The notes under the pieces were generated by a model that did not search any database, had not been told where the DNA came from, and saw only the letters and a list, made by a program, of their open reading frames with translations. This document shows, piece by piece, positions 19,385-47,771 of a stretch of DNA of 64,000 bases. Every line of letters begins with the position of its first letter. Positions within the stretch are counted from its first letter, which is position 1. Position numbers and translations under genes: made by a program. Origin of the DNA: Ascochyta rabiei (lineage: Eukaryota; Ascomycota; Dothideomycetes; Pleosporales; Didymellaceae); NCBI RefSeq assembly GCF_004011695.2, contig NC_082411.1, forward strand, positions 1,900,908-1,964,907, given 5' to 3'.

Positions 19385-19386
19385 TA

Positions 19387-28166: not shown

Positions 28167-28214
28167 AAGCGGTGTAGCTAAGTTAGGTTTAGGCTGGGAC
28201 GTAAGTTAAGGGTA

Positions 28215-29757
28215 ACGTATTTAACGGGTAAGTCGGCCACACGGGCGAGTCGGCCACTCTGCCAAGACCACACCAACATTCTACCCTATTATGGCTTGCA
28301 TTGGCCTACATTAGTATTGTTTATAGTAGTACAGTATATAATATTATTTAGTAACACCTTCTTTAGGCTTTTTACACGTGCGCGAGTTATACCCTACATT
28401 GTGGCACTTTTTATAGCGTCTTTAGGTTACCTTACCTCCTTTAACACGTACTTGCTTCCTTACCTTCTTACCATCACCACACGCCCTAAACTTAGTTAGA
28501 GTAGTTAATTAAAGGCCTTCCTTAGCTGTTAGGACTCCCTCCTGCTGCAACCGCTTTCTTTTATGCGATCTACGTTGCATAGCAGCCTTATTTACTACTT
28601 AAAGCCTAGTAATCTCCCTTTAAGCTAACACTAGCTTATGCGCTACTATAGCTGCGCCTTTAGCAAGCTTTTTAAAGGCTCTAACTATTAAAGTTGGTAA
28701 GCTGCTTGCATGCCTTTAAATCCTCTCTTAAACCAGCGTTAATTGCGACCCTAATTGCAGGGTAGTGCTTAGGGTTTAGGACTGCTAGGGCTTATCTTCT
28801 ACAGTAGGTAGCGGTAGGGTACGTAGGCGGACATTAAGACCTATTATAACCCGTTCTGGGTTAAAGGGGACTATTCCAGCGCCTTAGAAGCCTTCTTAGA
28901 TATTACTAGAAGTAAATGTCTCCTTATAGGCGCCTATAAAGCATAATAGAAACTTAGTTTTAGTAATATAAGTAATGTAGTTGCGTATAAGATTCTTAGC
29001 TTAGCGCCTATATACCTTCTTTAGAGGAGCAAAACAACCCACATCTAGTGGTTATAAGAGGTAAGATGAGTGTAGAGGCATACACAGTGTAATAATGTTT
29101 ACTTCCTTACAGTATTATTAGAAGTTAAGGGAGTTGTGGCTCTTGTGGCCATTAATAAGGAGCAGCTAGTGCACTCCTTAGGTGCGCGTCTTTGTATAGG
29201 CATTAAAGTGCTTTAACCAGTCTAGACTAAGCTTATTAGTAGTCCATCCGTTCTTAGAGACTCTAATAACCTAATCATAGGGCAGATTATCCTCTTTGTA
29301 CCAGGTAGAGAGGTGGTTGCGGCCTTTAAAGATAATAAAGGGTAGAATAGCCTACTCTGTGCCATTAATGCCCTGTATAACCGTTGTCTACTCTTAATTA
29401 CCCTACTACACTACCTTTAGCTGTCCTTAACGCTCTAAACCTGTAATAACTGCTCCTGCAGATATCTGGCCTATTATAAAGCCTGTCTTATTAAAGTTAT
29501 ATATGTTATTATCCTAGATGCTATACTTAGCTTTAACATTTGCTATAAGCCTAAACTAGCCTTATATAATCTCTAGATCCTTATAGAGGGCTCTCTTATA
29601 GTCGTACTTACAATTAAACTTTACTTTAAGGTTAGGGCGGCGCTTAACAAATGTATTAGGCTAGTTTATGCCAACATGGCCTATATTGCGCTTAGTACGC
29701 AAAGAATTAGCTATATTAGCTACAGCAGCTAGCTAAGGAGCAAATCCTTGTACATCT
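28215..29757 (-). mobile_element. Truncated Fot1-like transposon inserted in module A
   Basis: Inserted at a TA (28213-28214) in the 3' flank of the module A helicase. Its left end ACGTATTTAACGGGTAAGTC differs from the complete Fot1 copy, with GGTAAGTCGGCCAC and GGCGAGTCGGCCAC as its subterminal repeats. From about 28,250 it aligns with 17,570 onwards (transposase C-terminus on the minus strand, stop-ridden). Homology stops abruptly at CAAATCCTTGTACATCTA, where module B begins, so the right third and right inverted repeat are gone. Confidence 0.8.
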
Positions 29758-30137
29758 ATCCCAAATAGGTAGACCGAACAATATATTGTTCGATTTTAAG
29801 GCGTGAGTTTGTTAGGGACGAGATGTACACGAACCTATGGTACATCTCAGACTACCCCATCGTTCGCTTACTTTACAGTAATTTCTAACTACGTTCGTTC
29901 AACGCATAACAATTCAATTCCTTTAAAAGCGAAATATGTTTCTTAAGCTACTAGAAGGTATAATCTATGTGACTTTTAGCGCAACAGTCTGTGTAGTTAA
30001 TAGCATTAGGGTTTGGTGTTTGTAGTTGCTATTACGCTAGCGCATAGAGGACAACAATGTTTACTACATATAAATAACAGCACAAAAATGTAACACATAA
30101 ACTACACAGCACAACTACATTAGTTACAGCATGCGAT
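29756..30137. repeat. Left-end repeat of module B with 18-bp palindrome
   Basis: 382 bp, nearly the same as 45,623-46,004 (module C), and related to 19,638-19,935 (A). A perfect 18-bp palindrome CGAACAATATATTGTTCG sits at 29775-29792, 19 bp from the end. No coding potential seen. Confidence 0.75.
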
Positions 30138-31904
30138 CTACGCCTGGGGTTTGTAAAGCTTAAGCAAAGTAAGTTGGCGCATTAGACGGACAGGTGCAGG
30201 GCTTTTTGCTGTCTTTTGGGCAGGCGCAGGCTCAACGCACTCCTCATCACCGCCGTGTTCGCAGTCCTCCATCTCACTGTCTTCAATCTCCTCCACCTGC
30301 GTCGCCGACATAGGCATGTTCGCCTCAATTGACAGCGTTGCCTTCTCGCTGATAGATCTGCCAGAGATGCCCTCTAAGCCCAGCCAGGCGTCTAAGGCCA
30401 TGCTTGCTTTGTAGGCTATCAGATTCACCTTCACAACTAACTTAAGCCAGATGTGCCAGAAGGGGACGCAGAGATTGTTCTCTACCTACAAGTTGGAGAT
30501 AATGTTGTGCGGCATCAGGCAGAGCATGCCCCAGCCCAGCCGCTTGGCTGCTTCGTACCAGCGGAGCGCCTGGTGCAGCTGCCTCTTAAACTGCTGTTGC
30601 TGCTGAGGCCCTGAAGCGGCGGTAACAGACAGCAGCAGGGCGTCTATAGCCTTAGAGCTGACCTTGCCCTTGCTGTATCAGTTATTGCCCTTATTGTTCA
30701 GCCTTGCGGCGTCCTGCGTCTAGATCTGGTCAATCTTCTTGGTGTAGGCCTTGCTGAGGAAAGCCATGGCCTAGCAGTACTTAATGTGGATGATGTCCAG
30801 CTCCTGCTTATAGCGGTCGCACAAGCTCCAGGCGGAGGCGAGCGCGCTTTGAGGCACAGTCAAGGAGCTGCTCTTCTGCGACAGCTGCCAGCGGCTGCGG
30901 GAGGAAGCGGGCGGGCGGGTTTCCTTAGGCTCCTGCGCAAAAGGCGATCCTTGTGTACACCAACTTCGCAGAAAGGCAGCAGCCAAGACCTAGGAAGCAG
31001 CATTGCTAATGCAACGGGCCTTGTTAAGCATACTAGAGGCTGTTAGGTAAGGCGCTGTGGCGCTGCTGTACAGGTTGTTGTTGTTACCTACTAGCTGCTT
31101 AAGGATCCATAAAATGAACAGCTCGTCCGGGCGCGAGATGGAGGCATAGGCACCGTGTTCCTTGCGGGATGCCAACTCGGGCAGCAGTACCAACCTAAGG
31201 TCCTGCTTCTTCTGCGCTCGCATAAGCTCCAGCTTCTTAGCGCGCTCTTGCTCAGCACGGCGGTTTTTGTTAGAGACGCTTGTGATCTGGGCGGGTTCCT
31301 CCTGTCCAACCTGTCCACAGACGGGCTCCTTAAGCTCAGGCTCTTCCAACCCGTCAGACTCGTTTAGTTCTGACAGCTGCGGCGTTGTTAGGCTGGGAGG
31401 CTTAGTGGCTAGCCGGAGACGCTTTAACAGCAGCGCTGAACTCAACGCAGCAGCGCGCTTTGTTGACTGCGGTAGGAAGTTGCAGGGCTGCTGCGCTGAA
31501 GGGGGTTCCTTTTAAAAGCTGTTGCTTGCGCTGTTAGCAAGGCCCTGTGCTGCAGAGACCAGCCGCGCCCATGTATCAGCAGGTAACGCGCTTTTGGCGA
31601 GCGTCTCCCTTAACAGCCATATCGCCGACAGCACAGAGTAGGCAACAAACACAGGCTTGCAGACACTTGTCTTGTCTGGAACTAGCCAGCCTGCGCTGTG
31701 TGGGCGGAATAGAGCATCACGCTGCGAGTTTAAGACAGTGGCCTTGTTCTAAAACAGCTTTTAGTAGTCCTTGTTCGGCAGGTCGTATGCAAGCCTGTGG
31801 GCAAAGCTAGACTTGCTGGCCAAGGGGAAGCTCCGAGGCCCGCCATCGAATTGCTTGGCGGCATCTTCCAGCGCGGAGATCCACAGCAGATTAGATGGCG
31901 ACAT
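30138..31904 (-). pseudogene. TLH partner protein, module B copy
   Basis: A 589-codon frame without net indels. Nonsense codons include TAA after NKDY, TAA after SDSF/SNSF, TAG before VLAAAFLRSW and TAG in NL*VE. The C-terminus reads MRQLTLLKLYKPQA, a few residues different from A and D. Divergent to the truncated helicase start. Confidence 0.6.
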
Positions 31905-32104
31905 GTTTGTTTGTTAACGTAGAAGATAAGGGGAAAGAAGAAGCAGTCGTGTTGTGTTAAGACCCTGGACTAGGGTAACAGCCTAGACGGAGATTGGCCT
32001 GTACAACATGGGCAGGCGCATAAGCTGGGGTGCGAGACTTAATATAACCTAATAATAAGAAGCAGGTTTACAGCATAGAACAGAAAGAACAGTACGTTGC
32101 CAAC
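31905..32104. promoter_or_regulatory. Divergent promoter gap of module B
   Basis: 200 bp between ATG 31904 (minus) and ATG 32105 (plus), the same length as in C and D. Confidence 0.45.
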
Positions 32105-32338
32105 ATGTTAGCAGAAGGCGTCAAGAATTAATACTTTGAGCACTTGGCTGAGTACCAGGTTGCGGTGTGCAGAGAGTGCCGGTACGCCGTATAGCCAGAT
32201 CAGATCAAGGGCCATTTGCAGAAGCTACACAAGCAGCCGCAGAAGAAAGCTAAAGCTATTAGAGATGCTGTACGCGGATGGGCAGACTTGCTACAGTACC
32301 CCATCGAGTTAGAGATACCAAGCAATGGCGTTAACCCT
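32105..32338 (+). pseudogene. TLH helicase, module B copy, 5' fragment only
   Basis: Begins MLAEGVKN and carries the first OrsD-type finger (CRECRYAV..DQIKGHLQKLHK). It matches A, C and D up to SNGVNP, then homology ends within TTAACCCTAA at 32,330-32,339. Confidence 0.75.
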
Positions 32339-32344
32339 AACAGC

Positions 32345-32775
32345 TTATCTAGCAGGATATCTAGAAATTTAGGATATCTAGAAACTTTTTTGTTTTTTCT
32401 TTTCTTCTTGCTATTTCTAGCCTATTGTAACGTATCTAGAAAATTTCTAGATGTCTTTTTTTTTTTTTAGGATATCTAGAAATTTCTAGATATCTTCTCC
32501 TTTAGGTTATCTAGAAATTTCTAGATATCTACTTTTTTAGAATATCTAGAAATTTCTAGATATCTTCTTCTTTAGGTTATCTAGAAACTTCTAGATATCT
32601 TTTTTTTTTTTTTAGGATATCTAGAAATTTCTAGATATCTTCTCCTTTAGGTTATCTAGAAACTTCTAGATGTCTGCTTTTTTAGGTTATCTAGAAATTT
32701 CTAGATATCTACTTCTTTAGGTTGTCTAGAAATTTCTAGATGTCTACTTTTTTAGGATATCTAGAAATTTCTTAA
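32345..32775. repeat. Palindromic minisatellite, 35-bp period
   Basis: About a dozen imperfect units, each built on a 24-bp palindrome (arm GATATCTAGAAA followed by its complement) separated by TTAG/TTCT-type spacers. Best-aligned units start at about 32,471, 32,506, 32,541 and 32,576. The array begins exactly where module B is broken. Confidence 0.85.
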
Positions 32776-33664
32776 GCTTTAGCTTCTTTTACTATATCTC
32801 TACTAGATCTAGTCTCTTCTAGTAGCTTATTTAGAAGATAATAAAATAGTTAATAACATTTTATTAGTATCTATAACTATCTTTTAGTTATTCTACTATC
32901 TCTATAGCTATAAACACTATAGCTAATAGCTATCTACTAGCTATTTACTAGGTATTATACTCTACTAACCTATCTAAAAGAACAACTAGCGCTTTAGAAT
33001 AAGTAGTTAGTTTTTTATTCTTTTCTTCTTTTTCTTCTTCTTTTCTTTCTTCTTTTCCAGCTGTTATAGCCTATCCTAGGGTAGTAGAGATAGTAGTTCT
33101 AGAAAGTAATATCTAGTAGAGATTATTAGAGAGAAGAACTAGCTTTCTATCCCTTATAGATAATAAGTAGATAGAATAACTAGAGAGAATACCTAGGGAG
33201 AATATCTAGAGAGAATAACTCTTACTTCTTATACTTAGTATCTATAAGAATAACTAGCGTTAATTCTTTCTATTTCTCTATATAGCTAATAGTAGTAAGT
33301 ACCCTTAAGATATAGAAATAGGAAAAGAGAATTCTCTATCTTTTCTATCTAGTATATAGGTAGAGGCTCTTTTAATAGATAAAAACAAAGTATAATATAG
33401 AGAAAAGCATTCTTCTAAGACTATTCTTTACTAGCAATAGCTAGTAACTTTCTATTCATACAGTAACTAAAGAGAAGAACTAACAATCCTTTTATAAAGG
33501 TAATAGCATTAACTAATCTTTATTCTATCTTATTTCTATTTATATACCTACACTATAGCTAGAGACATTTCTTTTTTCTTAGTTTATTCTTTTTAAAAAG
33601 TAGATAAGATTCTAGAACTAATTTTAACCTTAAAGGACTTCTACTTAAAATAGAGCTATAGCAT
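32776..33664. other. AT-rich spacer in unit X
   Basis: No open frame on either strand that I can support. A long T/C-rich tract lies near 33,010-33,060. Composition matches the rest of unit X. Confidence 0.4.
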
Positions 33665-34328
33665 TTAATAGTCTATAAAAAGATCTTCTTCTTCTTCTAT
33701 ACTAGTAGAGCTAGTAGAACTAGTAACACTAGTAGTACTTTCTTCTTTCTCTTCTTCTTCTTCTTCTTTCTCTTTTAAATTCTCTAGGTACTCTAGTGTT
33801 TCTCTACTAAAGAAGGAAGGGCTAGACTTATTAGCTACTATAGTTACTATACTAGCATGGAGACATACCTATTATCTAGCTCTAGAATAGTATAGAGTCT
33901 ATTACTAACGTACTCTTCTAAGAACTCTTTACTAGTAACTAAAGTAACTTTATCTTCTACTCTAGTATTATAGTAGGTAATATAGTATTCTTCTTTCTTA
34001 AAAGAGTTTACTATAATAATAAAGAACCTAGTATAGCCTAGTTCTAAGCCTAGCGTCTGCTATTAGCATAGATACTTCTACTATAAGATTATACTACTAT
34101 ACCTTTCTTATAAATATAGTTTACTAAGCTAGGTAGCTTGCTATAGCTAACTAGGTAGCCTAGAAAGCCTACTACCTTATTACTAGCTTTGTCTCTTATA
34201 TTATAAACATTCTTTCCTAGTAGATAGGTAGAAGTTAAAGCTAAAGAGCTAAGATTTTCTTTAAGAAATCTTCTAGCTATAGTAGTACTATAGTTAAGAT
34301 TCTTATAGCTCGTCTTAATTCTAGACAT
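33665..34328 (-). pseudogene. Divergent minus-strand gene of unit X (intron-containing or broken)
   Basis: Starts at ATG 34328 with 79 open codons (MSRIKTSYKNLNYSTTIARR... LLGKNVYNIRDKASNKVVGF). A second frame then continues QTLGLELGYTRFFIIIVNSF ... VTSKEFLEEYVSNRLYTILE. A third has SSPSFFSRETLEYLENLKEK followed by a Glu-rich and Ser/Thr-rich end, stopping at 33665. A GTAGTA...CTAATAG segment near 34,060-34,098 could be a 38-nt intron joining parts one and two; a GTATGT donor near 33,870 could begin a second intron, but I found no clean acceptor. I do not recognise the protein, and it shows no clear similarity to the module A-D partner. Confidence 0.45.
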
Positions 34329-35152
34329 CTAGAAAAGATAGAAGTTAGCTTCTAGAAGATAGTAGTATATAGAATTCTTACCTTTAGTATTTTGCTTAGT
34401 ACCTTAGTATAAGTAGTTAGGGTTATAGAAGAGTAGATAGTAGTGTAGTAGTATAAAATAGAAAGAGAGTTTCTCTACTTTTATATTATCTTCTTTTCTA
34501 TTACGTCTTAACTAGTAGTCTTCTATTTACTATACTAAAATTAACAATTAATATATCTTTCTTTACTTAATCCTTAATTAGTAGTAGAATAATTAAGAAT
34601 TAACTAATTCTTCTTTACTAAATTCTTAATTGTTCTAGCAGTAATTAAGAATTAACTAATTCTTTATTTATTAAATCCTCATTACTAGTAGAATAATTAA
34701 GAATCAACTAATTCTTCTTTAATTAATTCTTAATTATTCTAGCAGTAATTAAGAATTAACTAATTCTTCTTTTATTTATTTCTACTTACTAGTAGAATAA
34801 TGAAGAATTAACTAATTCCTCTTTGTTTAATTCTTAATTACTAGTAGTAGAATTAAGAATAAAGGTAATTCTCTAGTAACTAAACGCTAATTAGACTTAC
34901 TAATAGCTAGAGCTAGCTATCTATATAAACACTTCTTTCTTCTCTTTACTATCCTTCTCTACTCTACTCTCTACTTTACTCTTTACTATACTATTCTATC
35001 TACAGACCTCTACCTTCTATATCTATTACTAAATACTATAAAAGTAAGTATTCTCTATTTCTACCCTTAGCTACATCTTCTACTAGAAGCCTACTAATAT
35101 ACCTATAGAAATACTATAAAAGAACTCTATTTAACTAGCTAAGTATACTACT
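34329..35152. promoter_or_regulatory. Divergent spacer of unit X with AATTAAGAATTAACT tandem repeats
   Basis: 824 bp between two opposed genes. From about 34,545 to 34,860 a unit of roughly 55-60 bp recurs about five times. It contains TTAAGAATTAACTAATTC and its near-complement, so each unit can fold back. This is likely the promoter region of both genes; the repeats may be regulatory or simply a minisatellite. Confidence 0.5.
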
Positions 35153-38100
35153 ATGTCTACCTCTAACTATACTCCTACTATAGAGCTAGGCTATAACTTA
35201 TCTTACTTTAAAGATCTAGGGCTTCTATTCTGCTCTAATAGTAGCTGCCTAACTAGTATTAATAGTAATAAAAGTACTAATGTAGTAGAAATAACTAAGC
35301 AGCATCTTATAAAGCAGCATAGAATTTCTTTTAAAGATAGAGAAGTAAAAAGGTTTTTAGAAGATATTAAAGACTATTCTATAGCTAATATTAATAGTCT
35401 ACACTCTATAGAGAACTATAAGTATTTCTTTAAAGAACTAAAGCTTATAGAAGAAGGTTATCTATGCCTAGTTAAAGAGTGTAATAGTCTCTTTAGTACT
35501 ACTAAAAGCTTATACCTACACTTAGAAAAGCATAGAAAAGAGAAAGAAATACCTTTTACTAGTAGTAAAAAGACCTTCTATGAAAGTAATATTAAGATAC
35601 AAAGTCTATTTAAGAAGAAAGATTTATTAAACTACTTTATTATAAAAGATAATAGTAGTACTACTAGCGCTATAGAGCCTACTATTACTACTACTACTCT
35701 TAGTACTTCTAACAGCCTTATTAATAGCTATAGAGAAGAGCTAGAAGCGTTTACTAATGCTACTAATCTAAGCTTTACTTTATTAGAGAATAAAGAGATA
35801 CCTTCTACTATACGTAAAACTAAGTTCTATCTCTTTCTTAATAATAAGAATCTCAATAGCCTACTTAAGCTAGTTACTATTCCTATAAAGAAGAGCACTA
35901 CTACAGAAGAGAGAGTAGAATACAATCTACTTAAGCTAGTAGAAGAGACTCTATACTCTATAGAACCTCTAGTAGAGAAGCTAAATAGAAGGCTTAGGCA
36001 GCAGCTAAAAACAGAGGTACTAGCTACTAATAAAGAGAAGAATCTAAAAGACTTTAGCCTACTCTCTAGTAAGGATGTGAAAAGAAAGTACTATAAGTAT
36101 TTTAGTCTATTTATAGTCTATCTATATAGAGTTATTAGAGAAAGAGCTAGAGATAAGTCTACTACTAGTAAGCAACCTATTGTACCCTCTCTAGTAGAAG
36201 AGCTAGTAGCTACTATAGTAGAGAATATAAAAGACTTTCTAGAAGCTAGTAAAGAAAACCTAGAAGATAGTATACTAGATACTCTATTTACTACGCTAGT
36301 TGCTAGAAGAAAAGAGTATTTAATAGCTATAGTAGATACGCTGCTAGAGCAGCCTCTAGCACAAGATAACCTAGAAGAATACCCTAGCTTTAATAGTGCT
36401 ATTATTACTTTTCTAGCTATTAAAAGTATAGATCTAAATACAAGAGTTACTAAGGCAGCTATTAGCATAGAGCAAGATTGCTCTTATCTAATCTATTCTC
36501 TTAGGCTATTCTCTATAGCTATAGTTAATAGTAGATATAATAAGTTAACTACTAGTAGTAATTCTACTAGCTTAGAAGAGGTCTTTCTAGACTACTATAG
36601 TAGAAATCTAACATTTAACTCTAGTAATAGCTTTAAAGAATTAACCTCTTTAAGAGCCTATACTAGAGCTATAGCTACTAACACGCTAACTAAGCCTAGA
36701 ATAAGAGATATTAGTAGCAATCTCTTTATAGTAGATAATAGTCTAGAAGTAGATATTAAGAAGCTTAAGAAGTTCTTTGTCTATATAGAAGATACCTTAG
36801 AAGAGTTTCTATTCTCTAGAATTCTTTATCTTAATCCTAGTAATCTAGATCTAGACTTTAACAAGCTAGAAGATAGTGTAGTAGATACTAGTCCTACCTA
36901 TAGCTTTCTAGAAGATAGTACTAACAATAGAGACTATAACCTAAAAGACTATAGCTTCTACCTAATTAAAAGACTAGAAGATACTAGCTCTATCTTCTCT
37001 AAGTTCTTTATTAATAGCATTACTAGCACTAGTATAGATTTTAATATCTATAATATAAGAAAATATCTAAAAGATAGGCAAGAGTTTATTAAGCTACTAG
37101 GTCTAGCTTTCTATCTACTAGCAGCTTGCCCTATTAGAGGCACAGAGGTAGAGTTACTAAAGTATACTAATAGCCTAGAGCTAGGCTCTAGAAACCTATA
37201 TATAGATAGCATTACTAAGCTAATAAAAGTAGAGACTAGCTATAGCAAGTCTAATAGTATTACTAATAGAGATAATAACATAGTTAGGTTCTTTAGCCCT
37301 AAGTTTAGCTACCTACTAAAAGTATATATAACTTTAGGCATACCTTTCTATAACTACCTAAACTTTAAGGTGTTTAATATAAAGAAAGCTAGTCCTTATT
37401 TACTAGAAGTTAATAATAAGCTTATTACTAGTAAAGATATCTCTAATCTACTTAGTATTAAAAGCCTAGAGTTTCTAGGTATAAAGCTCTCTATCTCTAC
37501 TTATAGACAAGCTATAAAGTATATTATTATTAATAGATTAAATATAGATCTAGAAGGTATACTAGAAGAAGAGGAGGAAGAGAATAATATAGAAGATATA
37601 CTGTTTAATCACTCTACTAAAGTAGCACTAGGTAACTATGCTAGAGATAGTAATATCCTAGCTAGTAAAACTAGTAGCCTAGAGCAAAAGTCTATAGATT
37701 TTACTACTAGAATCTTTAACTTTCTAGAGCTTAGTAGTAGAACTATAGATAAGAAGCTAGTAGTCTTTAACGCTATAGCTACTAGGCTAGAAGACTCTAT
37801 TCTACCTAGCGTAAAGCCTATTAGAAGAGAAGAAGCTAAGAGTATAGAAGAGTTAATAGAAGATATAAACATTATAAGCTCTAGTAAAGCACCTTCTTCT
37901 AGTAGTAATAGAGAAGAGGAGGTAAGCTATAGTAGTATAGACTTTAATAACCATACTACTTTAAAAGATAACTTTAACTATAGTACTAGTACACAGGATA
38001 TATTAGATAAAGTATATAATAATACTTCTAGTAAAGATACTATAAGAAGAGAAAGTAGTAGTAGTAGCTCTAGTAGTAGCTCTAGTAGAGAGAAGAGCAG

Positions 38101-41100
38101 ACCTCCTACTACTATAAGTAAGAGAAAGAAGTTTATAATTAATAGCTCTAGTTCTAGCTCTAGCTCTAGCTCTAGTTCTAGAAAAGAAGAGGCTCTTACT
38201 ACTAGTAGCCCTAAAGTAGTCATACTAAAAAAGCCTATTAATAAGAAGCATTATACTAGAGTAGATACGCTACCTAGTAAAGAAGAAGATATAATAGATA
38301 TCTCTAGTAATAGTACTACTAGTAGCTTAGCAGATAACGCTAGCTTAGAAGAAGATAATAGTACTAGAGTTTATAGGATAAGAAATAGAAGAAGTCTATA
38401 TAAGATTAATAAAAGCACTAAAGAAGGTACTTCTAGTCTATATCCTATCTTTACTACTAGACTAGAGGCTACTTCTACTAGTAAGAATAATAGTAGAAGG
38501 AATAGTAGAAGCAATAGCTTAGACTCTAGTAATAGCTTTACTAGTGCTAATTATATACCTAGTACTTCTATAGCTACTACTAGTGCTAGTAAGAAAAAGA
38601 GTGTAGAAGAAGAGAATAAGTATAGTACTATTCTAAACCTAGTAGAAAACTATAAGAGTAAAAGCCTAGCTTCTAGTAGAAGTAAAGAAGTAAAAAAGCC
38701 TCTAGTTTATACTACTAGCACTAGTAAAAGTAGTAAGGATAATAGAATAAGTGAAAGAATACCTACTAGTACTTTTAGAAGTAGTAGTAGCTCTAGCGCT
38801 AGTGCTTCTACTACTAAAGAGAATAGATCTATAGAAGATAATCTTAGTAGTAATAGTAACTTAGCTATAGAAGAAGATGCTATTCTAGAAGAAGACTCTA
38901 GTAGTAACTATAGTCTAGATATAGAAGATAGTCTTCTTCTAGAAGAACTTAATAGAGATAAAGAGAATCTAGTTACCTCTACTATAGAAGAGAATAGTAG
39001 CAGTAGCACTAGTAAAGAAAAAGAAGATGCTAACTCTAGTAAAAGTAAAGAGGTACTACTAGAAGATAAACTAGATCTAGCTAGGCCTTCTTTTAGAACT
39101 AGCTCTAGTATTCTTAGTAGTAATATTAACTATATAAAAGATCTTACTACTAATAGAGAAAGAGAAGCGCTATTAAATAGAAACACTACTATAAGTCTTA
39201 GTAGTAGTATTCTACCTAGCTTAGACTTTAATAAAGAAGAAGAAGAAGAAGAAGAAGAAGAAGAAGAAGAAGATATCTTTTCTAAAAGCTCTTCTGCTAG
39301 AGAAATACCTTCTAGTAGCTATAGTAAGAAAATAGAAGCTATTATAAATAGAGATATTGAAAAAGAAAAGACTAGTCTAACTAGCACTTTACCTATTCTA
39401 CCTAGTAGTCCTAGTAAAAGAAAGTCTAGTATAGACTTAACTAGCCCTATAAGCACTAAGCTTAAAAAGCTAAACTATTTAGAAGGTATTATTACTAAAA
39501 CTAGTAGTAGTAATAGTATAAGTCTAGAAGAGAGAGAAAAGATTATTAGAGAGAATATTAAACTTAGAAGCTTAACTAACTTAGCTATAAGTAGTAGAAA
39601 AAAGACTTTACTAGAGAGCTTAAAAGAGCTATATAAAAGTATAAATATAGAAATAGAAGACTTTAAAAGCCCTAGGCAAGAAGAAGCTATTAAAGAGATA
39701 ATAGATTCTACTCCTTTCTTAACCTATATATCTAAAACAGGAGGAGGAAAATCCAATCTCTTCTTTCTACCTAGCTACTTATATTCTAATAGAAAGTATA
39801 TAGTAGTAGTACCTAGAATAAGCTTACTAAAAGACCTTTATAATAGATCTAGAAGCTTAAAGCTTAATAGTATGCTAATAGATGCTAGTAATCTAGATAC
39901 GCTAGATACTAAAGAGATAAAAGCAAATCTACTGTTTATATCTATAGATTTATTACTAGAGGTTAGCTTTTTAAGCTACTTGTATAGTCTTAAGATAGAT
40001 AGAGTATCTACTACTATCTTCTTAGAAGAAGCACACTTACTGCTACTAGAAGAAAGCTTTAGGCCTAGGCTAGAAAGTATTAATAAGATTCTTAATCTAG
40101 AGTTTAATCTAGTATTTATAAGCGCTACGCTACCTAGTAGCTTACTTAATCTATTAGAGTTAAAGTTTAGTATCTATAAGCCCTATACTATAAAAGAGTC
40201 TACTACTAGAGATAATATAAGCTACATACCTATAGAAAGTAATAAGCCTATAGAGATAGCTAGAAGTATTCTAATAGAAGAAGTAAAGTCTTTAAAAAGT
40301 AAAGAGAAGATAATTCTCTATACTAGAACTAAAGAAGAAGCTAGAAGGGTAGCTAAGGCGTTTGCTATACCTTACTACTATAGCACTATAGATCTAGAAG
40401 AAAAAGTGCTACTAGAGAAAAATCTAAGCTTATTTCTAGATAGGAATAATAGTACTTATACTAGCATAGTAGCTACTAGCGCTTTAATAGTAGGGATAGA
40501 TTATCCTTTTATTAAGAGTATTCTCTTTATCTATATCTATAATAGCTTTATTAATACTATACAAGGTATAGGTAGAGTAGCTAGATTGTTAAAAGAAGGC
40601 AAAGCTTTTCTAATTTATCCTAGTACTATAAAAGATAGATTGGTAGAGACTTCTATTAACGCTAGTAGTATAACTACGTTAGAAGAGTTTAAAGTAATAG
40701 ATAATAACAAGTTAATAGAGTTTCTACTAGATAGAACTTGTAATAGAAGAATACTAGAGGAATATCTAGAAGATAAGCAAGAGCTAACTTGCTCTCTAGA
40801 AGTAGCTAAGTGTATTAGTTGTTTAAAAAGAAGTAAAAGTCTAGAAAAAGCTAAAGAAAGCCTAACTAGCAACTCTATTCTAGTAGAGACCTTAAAAGTT
40901 AAAATAATAGAAAAAATAGAAGATTTTACTACTAAATTTTGTATTAACTGCTTCTTTAGATATAAGTATACTAGCTATAGCACACACTCTTTAGAGGATT
41001 GCTCTAACTATAAAAGTAGCTTAGAGAATAGAGTAAGATCTATCTTTAAAGTTATAAAAACACCTATTCATGATAGAGGTATTATACCACCTAACTTAGT

Positions 41101-41164
41101 ATACTACTATTGCTATTTACCTAAGTTTATCTGCTACTCTAAGAGTAAAGCTACTTACTTATAA
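35153..41164 (+). CDS. Giant TLH protein of unit X: fingers, recombinase-like region, RecQ helicase
   Basis: 2,003 codons uninterrupted. Two C2H2-type fingers: C27, C32, H51, H56, then C105, C110, H123, H127. Residues about 650-835 resemble a tyrosine recombinase core: R662 in RGTE, K699 in YSKS, R785 in TYRQAI, H820 and Y829 in NHSTKVALGNYAR. A Ser-rich, disordered linker (about 890-1,450) includes poly-Ser and poly-Glu runs. RecQ helicase: P-loop TGGGKS 1529-1534, motif II EEAH 1625-1628, SATLP 1657-1661, ATSALIVGIDYP, motif VI QGIGRVAR 1804-1811. Cysteine clusters follow (C..C, FCINCFF). The protein has no tryptophan and only two methionines, with very few Gln and His. The TAA at 41162 probably truncates it. 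Likely a DNA helicase acting at chromosome ends. RecQ assignment firm, recombinase part tentative. Confidence 0.85.
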   Translation: MSTSNYTPTIELGYNLSYFKDLGLLFCSNSSCLTSINSNKSTNVVEITKQHLIKQHRISFKDREVKRFLEDIKDYSIANINSLHSIENYKYFFKELKLIEEGYLCLVKECNSLFSTTKSLYLHLEKHRKEKEIPFTSSKKTFYESNIKIQSLFKKKDLLNYFIIKDNSSTTSAIEPTITTTTLSTSNSLINSYREELEAFTNATNLSFTLLENKEIPSTIRKTKFYLFLNNKNLNSLLKLVTIPIKKSTTTEERVEYNLLKLVEETLYSIEPLVEKLNRRLRQQLKTEVLATNKEKNLKDFSLLSSKDVKRKYYKYFSLFIVYLYRVIRERARDKSTTSKQPIVPSLVEELVATIVENIKDFLEASKENLEDSILDTLFTTLVARRKEYLIAIVDTLLEQPLAQDNLEEYPSFNSAIITFLAIKSIDLNTRVTKAAISIEQDCSYLIYSLRLFSIAIVNSRYNKLTTSSNSTSLEEVFLDYYSRNLTFNSSNSFKELTSLRAYTRAIATNTLTKPRIRDISSNLFIVDNSLEVDIKKLKKFFVYIEDTLEEFLFSRILYLNPSNLDLDFNKLEDSVVDTSPTYSFLEDSTNNRDYNLKDYSFYLIKRLEDTSSIFSKFFINSITSTSIDFNIYNIRKYLKDRQEFIKLLGLAFYLLAACPIRGTEVELLKYTNSLELGSRNLYIDSITKLIKVETSYSKSNSITNRDNNIVRFFSPKFSYLLKVYITLGIPFYNYLNFKVFNIKKASPYLLEVNNKLITSKDISNLLSIKSLEFLGIKLSISTYRQAIKYIIINRLNIDLEGILEEEEEENNIEDILFNHSTKVALGNYARDSNILASKTSSLEQKSIDFTTRIFNFLELSSRTIDKKLVVFNAIATRLEDSILPSVKPIRREEAKSIEELIEDINIISSSKAPSSSSNREEEVSYSSIDFNNHTTLKDNFNYSTSTQDILDKVYNNTSSKDTIRRESSSSSSSSSSSREKSRPPTTISKRKKFIINSSSSSSSSSSSSRKEEALTTSSPKVVILKKPINKKHYTRVDTLPSKEEDIIDISSNSTTSSLADNASLEEDNSTRVYRIRNRRSLYKINKSTKEGTSSLYPIFTTRLEATSTSKNNSRRNSRSNSLDSSNSFTSANYIPSTSIATTSASKKKSVEEENKYSTILNLVENYKSKSLASSRSKEVKKPLVYTTSTSKSSKDNRISERIPTSTFRSSSSSSASASTTKENRSIEDNLSSNSNLAIEEDAILEEDSSSNYSLDIEDSLLLEELNRDKENLVTSTIEENSSSSTSKEKEDANSSKSKEVLLEDKLDLARPSFRTSSSILSSNINYIKDLTTNREREALLNRNTTISLSSSILPSLDFNKEEEEEEEEEEEEDIFSKSSSAREIPSSSYSKKIEAIINRDIEKEKTSLTSTLPILPSSPSKRKSSIDLTSPISTKLKKLNYLEGIITKTSSSNSISLEEREKIIRENIKLRSLTNLAISSRKKTLLESLKELYKSINIEIEDFKSPRQEEAIKEIIDSTPFLTYISKTGGGKSNLFFLPSYLYSNRKYIVVVPRISLLKDLYNRSRSLKLNSMLIDASNLDTLDTKEIKANLLFISIDLLLEVSFLSYLYSLKIDRVSTTIFLEEAHLLLLEESFRPRLESINKILNLEFNLVFISATLPSSLLNLLELKFSIYKPYTIKESTTRDNISYIPIESNKPIEIARSILIEEVKSLKSKEKIILYTRTKEEARRVAKAFAIPYYYSTIDLEEKVLLEKNLSLFLDRNNSTYTSIVATSALIVGIDYPFIKSILFIYIYNSFINTIQGIGRVARLLKEGKAFLIYPSTIKDRLVETSINASSITTLEEFKVIDNNKLIEFLLDRTCNRRILEEYLEDKQELTCSLEVAKCISCLKRSKSLEKAKESLTSNSILVETLKVKIIEKIEDFTTKFCINCFFRYKYTSYSTHSLEDCSNYKSSLENRVRSIFKVIKTPIHDRGIIPPNLVYYYCYLPKFICYSKSKATYL

Positions 41165-41524
41165 AGAGATATAATAGTTAACTATATAGTATTTCTACAA
41201 GAACTAATTAAGAGAGATATCCCTATTTCTAGCTTAGAAACACTATCTAAGCTTAAAGAAGACTATTTAAAAGATACTAGCTATACTACTAAAGAAGACT
41301 TTATAATAGTAGAGCTACTAAGTAAAGTAGTAGAAGTAGATACTAAGAAGGTTCTTTTCCTTTATAAGATTCTACTAGAAGTTACACTACTAGACCTAGA
41401 AAAAGATATAAAAGAAGTAGAGAGTAAATCTACTACTAGTTCTACTAGCGTAGTATCTAGCAATCTAGCTACTAGTATAGAAGAAACCACTTTAGAAAGC
41501 TTAAAATCTATCTTCTATACTTAA
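41165..41524 (+). pseudogene. In-frame continuation of the unit X TLH gene beyond a single TAA
   Basis: Directly after the TAA (41162-41164) the same frame stays open for 119 codons to TAA at 41522-41524 (RDIIVNYIVFLQELIKRD ... LESLKSIFYT). The module D helicase also extends at this place: its FLGCFPCSGVPQEIC aligns with YYYCYLPKFIC just before the stop here. The TAA is one C-to-T step from CAA (Gln). Either the gene is truncated in this strain, or the stop is read through. Confidence 0.65.
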
Positions 41525-43903
41525 AAGCTCTACTTTTCCCTCTACTATAGTAGCTTCTAAATAGTAAAATATATATATGTATTTTATCTTCTCTATTCTC
41601 TTTAGAAGGGAATGCTATTCTAGTAGTTAGCTTTATTAATATATACTCTATACTCTACTCTATAATCTATACTCTCTACTTCTTTTTAAGCAGAAGAAGA
41701 GTAGCTACTAGCTATTAACTTTAGTAAAGTAGGTAGAAAAGCTACTCTATAGCATATCTACCTTACTACTACTAGATCTCTACTCTCTTTATCTTAGTAT
41801 TTTTCTACTAGTTAATACTACTTTCTTTTCTTACTTTATAGTACTATCTTATAATTCTTTCTATATAGTAAAAAAAGAAGTTACTTATATAGTACTAGAA
41901 AAGTAAGAGTAAAAGCTTTCTATTCTACTTATAATAAGAGATGTCTCTTTACTTTAGAGATAAAACTAGTAAGTATAAGCTAAGTATAGTAAATAAAGAA
42001 TAGAAAGTAAGTATAAACTAAGTATAGTAAATAAAGAATAGAAAGTAAGTAAAAGCTAACTTAACTAGTAAATAAACTATAAAACGCTTTTCTTCTACTA
42101 CTTATCTATATAGACTTTCTATACTTAGTATAGTAAGAAGCTTTATCTCTTTATCTCTATAGTCTTTTCTTATCTTATCTATCTAGTAACAAACTAGCGT
42201 AGCTAATCTTACTATATAGTATTTTCTTTTTAAAGCTTATTTTACTACTTTCTAGCTAGTTCTTTCTTTTAGCTAGCTCTTTTACTTATTCTTTATACTA
42301 GTTACTCTATTCTTAAGCTAACTAAGAACCTACTTTTCCTTTCTTTTTAGTAAAGCTAGAAGTTTTTTTTTTTTTTTTTGTTTTTTTCTTATAAAATCTA
42401 TTACTATAAGTAAGCTTCGCTCTATCTTTTATACTATGCTACTAGTAGTAGTACTTCTAGTATTCTACTAGTAAGAATAGTAGTTAGCTTACTACTTTTA
42501 AGCTTAAGTAAAGTCTTTACTTTTATTTATTTATAAGTAAAAAGTAAAGTAGTTCCTATCTATCTCTATCTAGTAGTAAGGAAAGATAAAGTAGCTTTTA
42601 CTTCTTTATAAAAGTATACTAAGTAAAAATACTGGTTTTATTCTTTATATAGCTATAAGAAAGTAGACTCTATAGAAGTATAGCTAGCTTCTTATAGTAA
42701 CTATACTAGAAAATAATTCTTACTCTTCTTTATACCTAAAACCCTTCTTTTTTTTAGACTCTACGCAAAAATTAGGCCTAGAAAGCATATAAAACTTTAG
42801 CATTTAGAGAAATAAAAGCCCTTTAGTATAGTTTCTACTATTATAGAAGTAATCTATAGCTAGAAGCAAACTTTCCTATTTAGGAAGCTTAACTAACATA
42901 TCTTATATTCCTTCTGTCTAAGCCTAGAGAAGAGCTAGAGAGAAGATAAAAGAAGAATTTAAAAGCTACTCTTTAGTGGTATCATTCTATAAAGTAGCTT
43001 TTTCTATGTACTAGTACTTTATACTAGCTAGCTATATACTTTATTCTAGCTGGCTATAAGCTTTACTAAGCACTAGTAGCTTAGAGAGAAGTAAATACTA
43101 CGTACTTAAAGTAAGTAGAAGTTTAAAGTAGTAGAATAGAAGAAAAGTTAGAACTAAAGAAAAAAGAGAGATACTATAAGCTAGTAGATAGACTCTATCT
43201 ACTTCTACTAAGTAGGTTTCTATAGCTATAGTAGAAATAAGTAATTTAGTAGATAGTTACTTTACCTAGCTTCTATCTTCTTTCTATCTAGGTTATTTTC
43301 TATAAGGTTAACGTAGCATAGTTATAAGCTAGTTTACTAGTACTACTTACTCTATAGTTAACTTATCTTTACTATAAATAGAAAAGAACTACTAGCTTTA
43401 CTTAGCTTAGTAGTAGTGCTACTATAGTAGTAGAGAAAATAGTAAAGTATAGCACTAGAACTAGCTTTTTCTATTTATACTTATAGTAACTTCTACTTTT
43501 AGTACAACTACTTTTACTAGTTATAGATTTTCTTAGTATAAAGTAAAGAATACTAAACTTATCTATATTTATTTTCTTTATTTTTATTCTATAAAAGTAG
43601 TATTCCTCTTTTTATTAAGTATAGAAAAAGTAAAAGTACTTTTCTTAAGCTACTCTCTATTTATACTACTAGCTATAGCTATTTCTACTACTTTTACTAG
43701 AAAGAGCTCTATACTATTACTATAGAAACTAAGAAAAGATATTACTAGCTAGCTATCTATCTAGTATAGATAGCTTTTTTCTAGTAAAAGTAATCTCTTT
43801 TCTCTATATTGCATCTACCAAGGTATCTCTTTACAAAATCAAGAACATTTCTTCGTTCTCCTTGACAGATTGTGAATTTAGGCCTAATACAACTACCGAT
43901 GCG
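41525..43903. other. AT-rich non-coding spacer of unit X
   Basis: No open frames of note. It contains a 38-bp direct repeat, two copies at about 41,968-42,050 (AAGTATAA(G/A)CTAAGTATAG...), and a long T run at 42,365-42,380. From about 43,815 composition returns to normal (ATCTACCAAGGTATCTC), leading into the 101-bp repeat. Confidence 0.5.
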
Positions 43904-44300
43904 GGGTATGCATGGGAGTAAGGGAGATAGACTGAAAATCAAGAACTTTGTTTGCTATCTTGTAAAGATGTCTTTGTTGCGCAATTTTTCTAACTGCCAA
44001 TGCAGGGTATGCGTGGAAGCAAGGGAGATAGACTAAAAATCAAGAACTTTGTTTGCTATCTTGTAAAGATGTCTTTGTTGCGCGATTTTTCTAACTGCTA
44101 ATGTAGGGTATGCGTGGAAGCAAGGGAGATAGACTAAAAATTAATAACTTTGTTTGCTATCTTGTAAAGATGTCTTTATTGCGCGATTTTTCTAACTACC
44201 AATGCAGGGTATGCGTGGGAGCAAGAGAGATTAGCAGGAAACTAAGAACTTATCCTGCTTTCTCTTTACAGAACGTAGATAGCCACTGTTTTCTATAAGT
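43904..44300 (+). repeat. 101-bp tandem repeat, about four units
   Basis: GGGTATGC(A/G)TGG(G/A)AG starts units at 43,904, 44,005, 44,106 and 44,207, an exact 101-bp period. Three units are nearly identical (AAGAACTTTGTTTGCTATC, TGTAAAGATGTCTTT); the fourth diverges. Composition is balanced, unlike the surrounding AT-rich unit, and CpG/TpG are retained. Confidence 0.85.
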
Positions 44301-44385
44301 AGGGGCAAATTTCTCTTTTTTCTCTTCCTCTACTCTACGCTTTACTTTTCTACTAGTAAGATAGCTACTTTTCTACTCTTTTACT

Positions 44386-45462
44386 ATGCCTACTACTAGA
44401 AGTAACTCTTTTACTTCTACTTCTTCTACTTCTTCTTCTACTTCTTCTTCTACCTCTTCTTCTTCTATTGCTAAGTCTACAGCTAAGAGAGGAAGACCTA
44501 GCTTTAGTACTAAGCTAACTAGGTTAGAAAAGAAGACTAAAGCTTTAGAGCTAGAGATTTCTCTTCTAAAGAAGCTAGTAGATCTTCTCTCTACCTCCTC
44601 TACTTCTTCTAAGAAGGAAGAAAGCAACAAAGAAGAAAGTAAGTACCTATTCTTTTTTCTTCTCTCTCTTATTCTCTGTCTTTTCTTCTCTTTTTCTCTC
44701 TTTTATTCTCTATTTTTTCTTATCTCTTTTTCTTTTCTATTCTCTATCTTTTTCTGTCTTTTTCTTTCTTTTATTCTCTATCTTTTCTTATCTCTTTTTT
44801 CTATCTTATTCTTTATCTTTTCTTATCTCTTTTTTCTATCTTATTCTGTATCTTTTCTTATTTTTTTCTCTCTTTTATTCTCTATCTTTTCTTGTCTTTT
44901 TGTCTCTTTATCTCTTTTATTCTTTATCTTTTCTTATCTCTTTTTTCTCTCTTACTCTATATCTTTTCTTATCTCTTTTTTCTCTCTTATTCTATATCTT
45001 TCTTTATCTCTTTTTCTTTCTTATTCTCTATCTTTTCTTATCTCTCTTTCTCTCTCTTATTCTATATTCTTGCTTATCTCTTTTTCTCTCTTTTATTCTA
45101 TATTCTTGCTTATCTCTTTTTCTCTCTCTTATTCTAAATCTTTGCCTATCTCTTTTTTCTTTATATTCTACATCTTTTCTTCTCTTTTCTTCTCTTTTCT
45201 TTTCTTTTCTTCTCTTTTTTTCTCTCTTATTCTATTTTATTTTTATTTTATTTTAGTTTTCTTTTCTTTTCTATTCTATTTCTTTTCTACTCTGTCTTTT
45301 TATATATGTGTGTATTTTTTATATATATATATTTTTTTTAAGAATATTATCTTTTCTAGGCTCTACCTAGTGCTATCTTACTATTTTACTATTCTACTAG
45401 CTTATACTAACCTTCTACTAGTTACTTTCTCTTTTCCTACCTTTCTAGAGGGGGGTAAGTAG
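44386..45462 (+). CDS. Small AT-hook-like / coiled-coil protein, probably spliced
   Basis: The first 84 codons look genuine: Ser/Thr-rich start, KRGRPSF (AT-hook-like, residues about 34-40), then a leucine-rich helix (LTRLEKKTKALELEISLLKKLVDLL) and a Lys/Glu tail. A GTAAGT donor at 44639 follows. The frame stays open afterwards only because of a CT-rich tract that translates as Phe/Leu/Ser. The likelier model is an intron ending near 45,421 or later, with a TACTAAC branch site at 45405-45411. That intron would be about 780 nt, unusually long for this genome. A small DNA-binding protein is inference. Confidence 0.4.
   Translation: MPTTRSNSFTSTSSTSSSTSSSTSSSSIAKSTAKRGRPSFSTKLTRLEKKTKALELEISLLKKLVDLLSTSSTSSKKEESNKEESKYLFFFLLSLILCLFFSFSLFYSLFFLISFSFLFSIFFCLFLSFILYLFLSLFSILFFIFSYLFFLSYSVSFLIFFSLLFSIFSCLFVSLSLLFFIFSYLFFLSYSISFLISFFSLILYLSLSLFLSYSLSFLISLSLSYSIFLLISFSLFYSIFLLISFSLSYSKSLPISFFFIFYIFSSLFFSFLFFSSLFFSLILFYFYFILVFFSFLFYFFSTLSFYICVYFLYIYIFFKNIIFSRLYLVLSYYFTILLAYTNLLLVTFSFPTFLEGGK
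44645..45240 (+). repeat. Pyrimidine-rich satellite within the putative intron
   Basis: Imperfect repeats of TTATTCTCTATCTTTTCTTA TCTCTTTTT type (period roughly 50-60 bp), almost purely T and C on the + strand. Low-complexity DNA, not coding. Confidence 0.75.
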
Positions 45463-45622
45463 AAGCTTTTTTCTATACATTTATACATGTATATATATAT
45501 ATATATTTTTATTTTTTTTATTCTATTTTTACTTTTTATATTTATTTTTACTTACTTAATAATAGACTTTCTTATGCCTAGCGGTAGCTTTAGCGAGCTA
45601 GATCTGTTAAGCAGCCAGTTCC
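45463..45622. other. Right edge of unit X
   Basis: AT-repeats (TATATATA, poly-T) up to about 45,575, then about 45 bp of normal composition (CCTAGCGGTAGCTTTAGCGA) before the left end of module C at 45,623. The origin of that short piece is unknown. Confidence 0.4.
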
Positions 45623-46004
45623 CTATCCTAAATGGGTAGACCAAACAATATATTGTTCGATTTTAAGGCGTAAGTTTGTTAGGGACGAGATGTACACAAA
45701 CCTATGGTACATCTTAGACTACCCTATCATTCGCTTACTTTACAGTAATTTCTAACTACGTTCGTTTAACGCACAACAATTCAATTCCTTTAAAAGCGAA
45801 ATATGTTTCTTAAGCTACTAGAAGGTATAATCTATATAACTTTTAGCGCAACAGTCTGTGTAGTTAATAGTATTAGGGTTTAGTGTTTATGGTTGCTATT
45901 GCGCTAGCGTATAGAGGACAACAATGTTTACTATATATAAACAACAGCATAAAAATGTAACACATAAACTACACAGCATAACTATATTAGTTACAGCATG
46001 CGAT

Positions 46005-47771
46005 CTACGCCTGGGGTTTGTAAAGCTTAAGCAAAGTAAGTTGGCGCATCAGACAGACAGGTGCAGGGCTTTTTGCTGTCTTTTAGGCAGGCGCAGGCTT
46101 AACGCACTCCTTATTACTGCCGTGTTCGCAGTCCTCCATCTTGCTGTCTTTAATCTCCTCCACCTGCGTCGCTAACATAGGCATGTTCGCCTTAATTAAC
46201 AGCGTTGCCTTCTTGCTGATAGATCCGCCAGAGATGCCCTCTAAGCCTAGCTAGGCGTCTAAGGCCATGCTTGCTTTATAGGCTATTAGATTTACCTTTA
46301 TAACTAACTTAAGCCAGATATACTAGAAGGGGACGCAGAGATTGTTCTCTACCTACAAGTTAGAGATAATGTTGTGCAGCATCAGGCAGAGCATGCCCTA
46401 GCCTAGCCGCTTGGCTGCTTTGTACTAGCGGAGCGCCTGGTACAGCTGCCTCTTAAACCGCTGTCGCTGCTGAGGCCCTAAAGCGGCAGTGACAGACAGC
46501 AGCAGGGCGTCTATAGCCTTAGAGCTGACCTTGCCCTTGCTATATCAGTTATTGCCCTTATTGTTCAGCCTTGCAGCGTCCTGCGTCTGGATCTGGTTAA
46601 TCTTCTTAGTGTAGGCCTTGCTAAGGAAAGCTATAGCCTAGCGGTACTTAATATAGATAATGTCCAGCTCCTGCTTATAGCGGTCGCACAAGCTCTAGGC
46701 AGAGGCAAGCGCGCTTTAAGGCACAGTTAAGGAGCTGCTCTTCTGCAACAGCTGCCAGCGGCTGTGGGAGGAAGCGGGCGGGCGGGTTTCCTTAGGCTCC
46801 TGCGCAAAAGGCGATCCTTGCATACGCCAGCTTCGCAGGAAGGCAGCAGCCAAGACCTAGGAAGCAGCATTGCTAATGGAGCGGGCCTTGTTAAGCATAC
46901 TAGAGGCTGTTAGGTAAGGCGCTGTAGCGCTGCTGTACAGGTTGTTGTTGTTACCTACTAGCTGCTTAAGGATCTATAAAATGAACAGCTTGTCTGGGCG
47001 CGAGATAGAGGCATAGGCACCGTGTTCCTTGCGGGATGCCGACTCAGGCGGCGGTACCAACCTAAGGTCCTGCTTCTTCTGCGCTTGCATAAGCTCCAGC
47101 TTCTTGGCGCGCTCTTGCTTAGCACGGCAGTTTTTGTTAGAGACGCTCGTGATCTGGGCAGGTTCCTCCTGTCCAACCTGTCCACAGACAGGCTCCTTAA
47201 GCTTAGGCTCTTCCAACCCGTCAGACTCGTTTAGTTCTGACAGCTGCGGCGTCGTTAGGCTGGGAGGCTCAGTGGCTAGCTGGAGACGCTTCAACAGCAG
47301 CACTGAACTCAACGCAGCAGCGCGCTTTGTTAACTGCGGTGGGGAGTCGCGGGGCTGCTGCGCTGAAGGGGGTTTCTTTTAAAAGCTGTCGCTTGCGCTG
47401 TTAGCAAGGCCCTGTGCTGCAGAGACTAGCCGCGCCCATGTATCAGCAGGCAACGCGCTTTTGGCAAGCGTCTCCCTTAACAGCCATATCGCCGACAGCA
47501 CAGAGTAGGCGACAAACACAGGCTTACAGACACTTGTCTTGTCTAGAACCAGCCAGCCTGCGCTGTGTAGGCGGAATAGAGCATTATACTGCAAGTTTAA
47601 GACAGTAGCCTTGTTCTAAAACAGCTTTTAGTAGTCCTTGTTTAGCAGGTTGTATGCAAGCCTGTGGGCAAAGCTAGACTTGCTGGCCAAGGGCAAGCTC
47701 TGAGGCCCGCCATCGAATTGCTCAGCGGCATCTTCTAGCGCGGAGATCCACGGCAGATTAGATGGCGACAT
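46005..47771 (-). pseudogene. TLH partner protein, module C copy
   Basis: A 589-codon frame, no net indels, more nonsense codons than A or D. Includes the same shared stops (after NKDY, before VLAAAFLRSW, in NL*VE). The longest open stretches lie at 46974-47312 (central charged region) and 47379-47594. Confidence 0.6.

Follow-up and report, generated by a model that had tools for sequence, protein, structure and literature searches.

For decades, fungal chromosome ends have been known to carry telomere-linked helicase (TLH) genes. The window analyzed here, 64,000 nt of Ascochyta rabiei DNA (GCF_004011695.2, NC_082411.1, positions 1,900,908-1,964,907, forward strand), reaches the chromosome end, a telomeric TTAGGG array (63890..64000; coordinates are those of the window, and features lie on its + strand unless stated otherwise). 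It carries an open reading frame, unit X (35153..41164), that encodes 2003 amino acids without internal stop and without tryptophan. Tyrosine recombinases such as XerD use the set R-K-HxxR-H-Y, with H and Y nine residues apart, and an initial annotation of unit X had named five residues, R662, K699, R785, H820 and Y829, as such a set. Does a TLH protein contain a recombinase? If so, this would provide a direct and testable reason for both the spread and the position of TLH genes.

The domain order of unit X is finger, tyrosine-recombinase-like domain and RecQ-type helicase. Two C2H2-like finger pairs (residues 27-56 and 105-127; 35231..35533) lie near the position of the OrsD domain of its relatives, OrsD being the current name of DUF3505. 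Pfam OrsD was found in many relatives among the matches listed, including P0128-P0130, and none was detected in unit X at E<=1. At the other end of the protein, the RecQ-type helicase domain that a TLH protein should have was recognized by Pfam and by comparison with RecQ structures (DEAD and Helicase_C, residues 1507-1811; 39671..40585). Between them, a region that we modelled (residues 480-870; 36590..37762) comprises a helical domain and, judged by comparison of the model with PDB chains, a tyrosine-recombinase-like catalytic domain. The five residues are exactly at the positions named, with the expected H-to-Y spacing of nine: R662, the first catalytic-type Arg (PIRGTE; 37136..37138), K699, the Lys of a β-hairpin (SYSKS; 37247..37249), R785, the second Arg (STYRQAI; 37505..37507), H820 (37610..37612) and the candidate nucleophile Y829 (37637..37639), the last two within NHSTKVALGNYAR.

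These positions had been named from a single sequence before any alignment existed. The protein search for relatives listed 120 of 334 matches; none of the matches listed by this and two further protein searches was labelled as fission yeast, Ustilago, Magnaporthe or Fusarium, most of them having no organism label. In the 120-row alignment, R, K, R and Y were invariant in the rows having the residue (119/119, 119/119, 116/116 and 115/115, respectively), and the His nine residues before the Tyr was present in 114/115. A 35-row alignment of the far set gave R in 33/34, K in 33/33, R in 33/33 and Y in 32/32, with His in 27/32 and otherwise R (4) or Y (1) at the position nine before the Tyr. The initial annotation had proposed such conservation as a test, and the named positions are indeed invariant or nearly so. 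Moreover, R, K, R and Y are among only 9 invariant of 520 columns in alignment A1 (hypergeometric 4.2e-8) and among 11 of 391 in alignment A2 (3.4e-7). Since they were named beforehand from one sequence and then found among so few invariant columns, the match of these four residues goes beyond chance. The box II His/Lys three residues before the second Arg (HxxR) is not conserved, the residues found there being A, Q, S, P, N and L, with K in P0130; a Tyr at position -1 of the second Arg is conserved in its place.

The other TLH copies in the window, A to D, had all been described as carrying the cognate region, which is incorrect for B: only A, C and D reach it, B being cut off earlier. The Tyr reported in place of His in A, C and D is there, but as nearly all relatives have His, it is likely, on sequence grounds, to result from C-to-T decay of the RIP type and not to represent a different active site. 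In copy D, the second Arg is missing as well (AYCEIAI).

We then compared the fold. When models of the domain from two distant members were compared with PDB chains, tyrosine recombinases/topoisomerase IB headed the ranking for both, with the same top fold and a clear gap to unrelated rows, as the initial annotation predicted; human topoisomerase I was among the structural matches, and Foldseek taken alone was not significant. With medium confidence, we assign the modelled domain to the tyrosine recombinase/topoisomerase IB fold. Pfam scans of unit X, five relatives and 12 trimmed domains revealed no recombinase family, and a profile of the 12 domains found nothing among PDB sequences up to E 10. 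The profile comparison, suggested as HHpred, was run as HHalign against XerD and phage recombinases and gave a weak match, one alignment pairing all five residues by eye (E 0.46, with a badly built profile). The HHalign reference comprised eight integrase loci, one of them (L064) annotated 'hypothetical protein', and left out locus L067, which is overlapped by two CDS. Thus, Pfam, PDB-sequence and HHalign comparisons gave no significant match to a site-specific recombinase family profile (Xer/integrase). The Starship captain domain DUF3435 (PF11917) had no match in unit X (E<=1), nor in relatives or trimmed domains (E<=10). Taken with the conserved residues, the models support the presence of a tyrosine-recombinase-type domain in the TLH protein.

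The element that contains unit X (32336..45625) has its fixed left end at 32336 (CCTAACAGCTTATC...), where the sequence CCTAACAGCTTATCCAG is followed by repeats. A pair of direct repeats lies just inside this end (32356..32385; GATATCTAGAAA...), both of which vary in the same way in other subfamilies, and a 35-bp tandem array (32433..32772, no strand assigned) is built on the same motif (TATCTAGAAATTTCTAGATA), making it a candidate set of binding sites. On its distal side, the X element abuts copy C, whose left end (CTATCC...) starts at 45623, so that 45625 is only a provisional limit of X. The X left end was found at 12 places in the genome, 16.7-58.5 kb from contig ends, and its left flanks were related in only 1/66 pairs, C12 and C5, which share 1500 bases. 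A second, main-type TLH family has its own left end, CTATCC..., at 20 places, 8.1-44.4 kb from contig ends. The counts from these genome DNA searches are lower bounds; a plasmid search found nothing. Both families thus have the chromosome-end location typical of TLHs. The window holds four further TLH elements: the decayed main-type element A (19638..28213, left end CTATCC at 19638); B (29756..32335), whose left end lies inside a 1.87-kb transposon copy and whose finger region is cut by the left end of X; C (45623..50655), adjoining X and interrupted within its TLH gene by the left end of D; and D (50656..57785), the outermost. A fixed terminus with unrelated flanks, as in DNA transposons, was therefore found for the left end, and this independent DNA evidence, which the initial annotation lacked, supports the proposal that TLH genes are mobile-element genes. 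The further wording, 'rather than host telomere genes', goes too far, because being a mobile element does not prevent a role at the chromosome end.

In 32/32 left-end places (12 X and 20 main type), the element extends from its left end in the direction of the closer contig end. At 6/6 junctions open to checking, the distal part of the target was absent and was not found beyond the element, only the left terminus being defined. By contrast, both target sides were kept in 3/3 cases by an ordinary transposon located within these elements. Native targets are known for seven junctions. CTA stands exactly at the junction in 4/5 of those of X and the main type, and is missing from the C|D target (CCAG) and both known T3 targets; the C|D junction rules out CTA as a strict target core. 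No common long target was detected in the flanks before left ends.

We consider it probable that TLH genes encode finger-recombinase-RecQ proteins and are part of mobile elements whose left end captures chromosome ends, through a putative enzyme activity and a presumed one-ended step. The proteins, that of unit X included, would have three parts, namely N-terminal fingers, a tyrosine-recombinase-like domain with R, K, R, H and Y, and a RecQ-type helicase, and the fixed left end of the mobile element would lie upstream of the gene. The fingers and/or the recombinase may bind the left-end repeats, and the Tyr would cut at the left end and join it to the target. Least certain, the event would be one-ended, the element and all DNA out to the telomere replacing the distal arm of the recipient, with the RecQ part perhaps supporting copying of the donor arm. 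The element would thereby spread, and the recipient arm would acquire a chromosome end. That fungal TLH genes supply the recombinases for a distinct class of one-ended, 'arm-capturing' elements is a tentative idea, to which we give slightly less than an even chance. If true, it would explain together the telomere linkage of TLHs, the single polarity, the stacking and the response to telomere loss.

Tyrosine recombinases usually integrate a circle between two ends, and an ordinary two-ended site-specific insertion, followed by repeated loss and replacement of ends via homologous recombination among subtelomeres, would fit this habit. In C7 and C17, X gives way at the same CCCTA to sequences that differ between the two, so that this may be a genuine right end; X copies C11, C13 and C16 show other kinds of breakage, and the flank common to C12 and C5 indicates that end duplication does occur. 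Recombination between TLH-type repeats has been proposed in Colletotrichum (PMC5576322). Such a history has to account for one polarity in every place and for the missing distal halves, where an ordinary transposon keeps both sides; we regard it as a real possibility, yet not the probable one. In Drosophila, HeT-A attaches to broken chromosome ends, and broken or eroded fungal ends might similarly be healed by joining TLH-bearing DNA, the recombinase only liberating or cutting the left end and the target being a random break. The left-end flanks without a common long target and the C|D and T3 targets without CTA are consistent with this, as is the up-regulation of TLH-like genes in telomerase-negative Ustilago (PMC10532341). 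However, the CTA at four of the five native targets known for X and the main type suggests a choice of sequence and lowers the odds of a random break, making this reading rather unlikely.

The remaining alternatives concern the domain itself. R-K-R-H-Y is also the set of topoisomerase IB, and together with the unconserved box II His and the human topoisomerase I match, this would suit a recombinase fold without recombinase function, namely a domain with which a host telomere helicase binds DNA or acts like a topoisomerase. The Crypton-derived DUF3504 proteins are a precedent for such domestication, but most of their catalytic residues were lost (PMC3212892), whereas those of TLH proteins are invariant and their genes belong to fixed-end elements present at many sites; we find this account improbable. 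A chance resemblance, with five unrelated residues and a model match due to a common helical arrangement, is hardly credible given that residues named beforehand proved invariant and that two distant members share a top fold well separated from unrelated rows.

The proposed finger-recombinase-RecQ proteins resemble Xer/Cre/Tn1549-type tyrosine recombinases in predicted fold, in the R-K-R-H-Y set and in GHS...Y with nine residues. They differ from them by the unconserved box II His, a longer interval from R to H that includes an acidic insert, the fusion to fingers and a RecQ helicase, and a sequence match that is not significant. Starships carry a tyrosine recombinase (YR) gene near one fixed end, and these fungal YR elements are similar in that respect; in contrast, TLH elements are ~13 kb and telomere-linked, with the helicase in the same protein and no DUF3435 match. 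Cryptons (YR DNA transposons) are likewise eukaryotic mobile elements with a YR (PMC3212892), but the YR-like domain of TLHs is fused to RecQ, and their elements lie at chromosome ends in one polarity with only the left end defined. A one-ended step, if true, would be a mode of spread unlike Cryptons or Starships as far as known.

We found no published description of a recombinase in TLH proteins, nor any paper with both 'telomere-linked helicase' and 'tyrosine recombinase', among the papers listed from the open-access literature, which covers neither bioRxiv nor most subscription journals. In the study of Colletotrichum TLH-type repeats, we take the code DHX to be Helitron-like. The accessible part of that study (PMC5576322) already treats these repeats as transposable elements with DUF3505 and a RecQ-type helicase in the same orientation to the telomere; the word 'recombinase' is absent from it, and to that picture we add the recombinase-like domain and left ends that are fixed but stand at unrelated sites. 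A supposed telomere-maintenance gene family thereby becomes a candidate group of mobile elements, which suggests how chromosome ends may be remade. Protelomerase TelA and the telomere resolvase ResT make hairpin ends, unlike the A. rabiei chromosome, which ends here in a TTAGGG array.

Unit X, the telomere-linked helicase (TLH) gene at 35153-41164 on the forward strand, was borne out as an open reading frame of 2003 amino acids, and R662, K699, R785, H820 and Y829, which the initial annotation had named as a tyrosine-recombinase-like set (here R1, K, R2, H and Y), were located exactly where it had put them. Pfam detected a helicase as the sole domain of this protein. To follow these residues among relatives, we used as query copy D, one of the four decayed main-type TLH copies (A to D) in the window, with its 20 stops read as X. 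Among the best 120 of the 334 relatives obtained, and counting the rows having a residue, R1 was R in 119/119, K was K in 119/119, R2 was R in 116/116, H was H in 114/115 and Y was Y in 115/115. Since 42 of the 499 columns of the region are fully invariant in this alignment, the set is close and invariance within it is not decisive. Among the listed matches carrying an organism name, that of Didymella pomorum is closest to the copies' proteins (84% over the searched part). Unit X as query gave nine relatives of its own, with which it shares R, K, R and Y in 10/10 sequences and H in 7/10 (R in two, Y in one).

We aligned the two groups together. A first alignment, comprising the P0003 segment, 46 of the other 119 listed proteins and eight of the nine unit X relatives (16-20% identical to the first row), retained 9 invariant columns out of 520, four of which are the named R, K, R and Y. 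A second one, comprising unit X, its nine relatives and 18 of the 120, retained 11 out of 391, again including these four. The hypergeometric chance for positions named in advance is 4.2e-8 and 3.4e-7, respectively. A third search returned 24 matches; leaving out two already known and one bacterial RecQ, the 21 further relatives showed R1 in 19/20 rows reaching the site, K in 19/19, R2 in 19/19, H in 16/18 and Y in 18/18. The conservation that the initial annotation proposed to test was observed for R, K, R and Y and, in the close set, nearly so for H. The His of the HxxR motif was not conserved among the relatives. Sequence-profile evidence for a recombinase was mostly negative: a profile search against PDB sequences gave no match, and no recombinase family was found in a Pfam scan of 12 trimmed domains. 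The proposed profile comparison, carried out with HHalign instead of HHpred against E. coli XerD and 8 of the 9 phage proteins fetched, lined up R1, R2, H and Y exactly and K with an offset of three, but the match was weak (score 20.05, E 0.05, probability 1%); one of 300 column-permuted controls reached this score and none matched more than 2/5 residues. We consider that the domain is very probably tyrosine-recombinase-like. No paper joining "telomere-linked helicase" with "tyrosine recombinase" was found in a literature search.

Copies of unit X, several of them 98-99% identical, are present at other contig ends of the 40.9-Mb assembly (23 contigs), in which the window occupies positions 1900908-1964907 of contig C7. 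Homology to the window's X element starts at a single point, 32336, in the window and in 6/8 other fetched copies, with a different left flank each time; the copies of C11 and C13 (C-numbers are contigs) are without this left end. When the genome was searched with the first 120 bases of X, at least 12 places were detected (8 at 96-100%, 4 at 77-81%), all having CCTAACAGCTTATCCAG, or one change from it, as their terminus. Their inner 600 bases are related in 66/66 pairs and their 1.5-kb left flanks in 1/66, that of C5 and C12, where the flanks are identical. As judged from these comparisons, the TLH gene sits in mobile DNA. Two direct repeats just inside the left end change together between subfamilies (TCTAGAAA, TCTACACCC, ACTAGCGG) and might be binding sites. 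On its right side, X shows the same CCCTA in C7, the window's contig, and C17, followed by different sequences; this CCCTA is either a target common to both or the genuine right end of X. A pyrimidine-rich ORF-like tract (44386-45462) lies distally in X, and a 74-base piece of it is matched, at 79%, near 20 contig ends, at distances of about 240-1110 bases.

The five residues are kept in 8/8 X copies. Compared with a neutral simulation using the same substitutions, the replacement:silent codon ratio was low in C11 (85:62, expected about 125:45), C13 (166:113, about 212:71) and C9 (20:20, about 28:12), only ratios and not totals being comparable because changes cluster in codons; the other five copies are too similar to tell. 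The unit X frame is still open with CpA at 0.24 of expectation, and its protein contains no Trp and 0.8% glutamine. Among the relatives P0123-P0152, Trp amounts to 0-0.3% in eight of the first nine, 0.8% in P0129 and 0-0.19% in the 21 further ones. Low CpA and Trp absence look like a purge of RIP-vulnerable codons, convertible to stops.

The main-type copies carry a different left end, CTATCC..., which marks four window positions (19638, 29756, 45623 and 50656) among at least 20 places in the genome. Stretches of 100 bases were examined for 13 of these places; a common flank occurs in two pairs, and another two places are located in satellite repeats that resemble each other. A conserved minus-strand frame upstream of main-type TLH genes (22141, 46646, 51700; YRWAMAFLSKAYT and variants) is perhaps a second gene of this element. 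T3, a third family that tblastn shows to be TLH-like and that shares about 30% identity with the main type, has a left end of its own (GCCGCTAGTGGTTTTC...) and was found in C11 (L012/L013), C19 (L016/L058) and C17 (L022). It truncates X in both C17 and C11, and in C19 it truncates the main type; there, the T3 copy has stops and extends to within about 1 kb of the telomere. We regard an active recombinase acting at the left end as likely.

The element body points towards the nearer contig end in 12/12 X places and 20/20 main-type places found, both lower bounds, with left ends 16.7-58.5 kb (X) and 8.1-44.4 kb (main type) from the contig end. Six distinct junctions have a target whose distal half is known and searchable, and the distal remainder was not found at 6/6: transposon-B, B-X and C-D (proximal partner first) in the window, which reaches the telomere; X-main in C15 and C19, counted as one site, and X-T3 in C11, the X remainder being absent from those contigs except for short weak matches; and main-T3 in C19, read up to the telomere. 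At B-X and C-D, related sequence is present distally, but inside copies C and D, which have left ends of their own. Three cases were left out: in C16, X breaks off at the position corresponding to 37756, and the adjoining sequence is not a known TLH left end; in C9, the X end is unseen near 44352; and the third is the X right side in C7/C17. In contrast, a 1.87-kb transposon (17520-19386, inverted ends of 76 bases, 84%), which has inserted into X at two sites on C9 and also on C15 and C16, is flanked by X on both sides at 3/3 distinct sites; C9 and C16 share one insertion position, after codon 762, and at the other site on C9, X lacks about 180 bases. One-ended capture, the left end being joined to the target while the element and the DNA out to the telomere replace the recipient's distal arm, may account for these junctions, a reading that we hold tentatively. 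Two-ended insertion with later end turnover is a real rival, as is the healing of broken chromosome ends.

Native target sequence was available for seven junctions. CTA stands at the junction in 4/5 X and main-type targets, namely B-X (CCTA in A and C), transposon-B, X-main in C2 and X-main in C15/C19. As CTA is also present at the main left end, the point of joining within these bases is ambiguous. C-D has native CCAG, and both T3 targets are without CTA (CTCCT in C11, GCTCT in C19).

In Colletotrichum higginsianum, every one of the 24 subtelomeres has TLH-type repeats with DUF3505 and helicase domains, all in one orientation, and these are treated as transposable elements (PMC5576322), so that neither the orientation nor the repeat status of TLHs is new; the word "recombinase" is absent from that text. 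Host TLHs are mentioned in a 2025 paper on Fusarium retrotransposons (PMC12857005), and a telomere-linked RecQ gene family with extremely low GC is described in Mycosphaerella graminicola (PMC4522978). New in the present work are the recombinase-like domain, the finding of fixed left ends at sites unrelated to one another, and the distal target loss. Finally, the window is closed by a TTAGGG array (63890-64000), a fungal chromosome end, preceded by about 3.7 kb (60200-63890) almost free of C on the plus strand, with scattered TTAGGG and a GC skew of 0.93-1.0 in the last two 2-kb bins.
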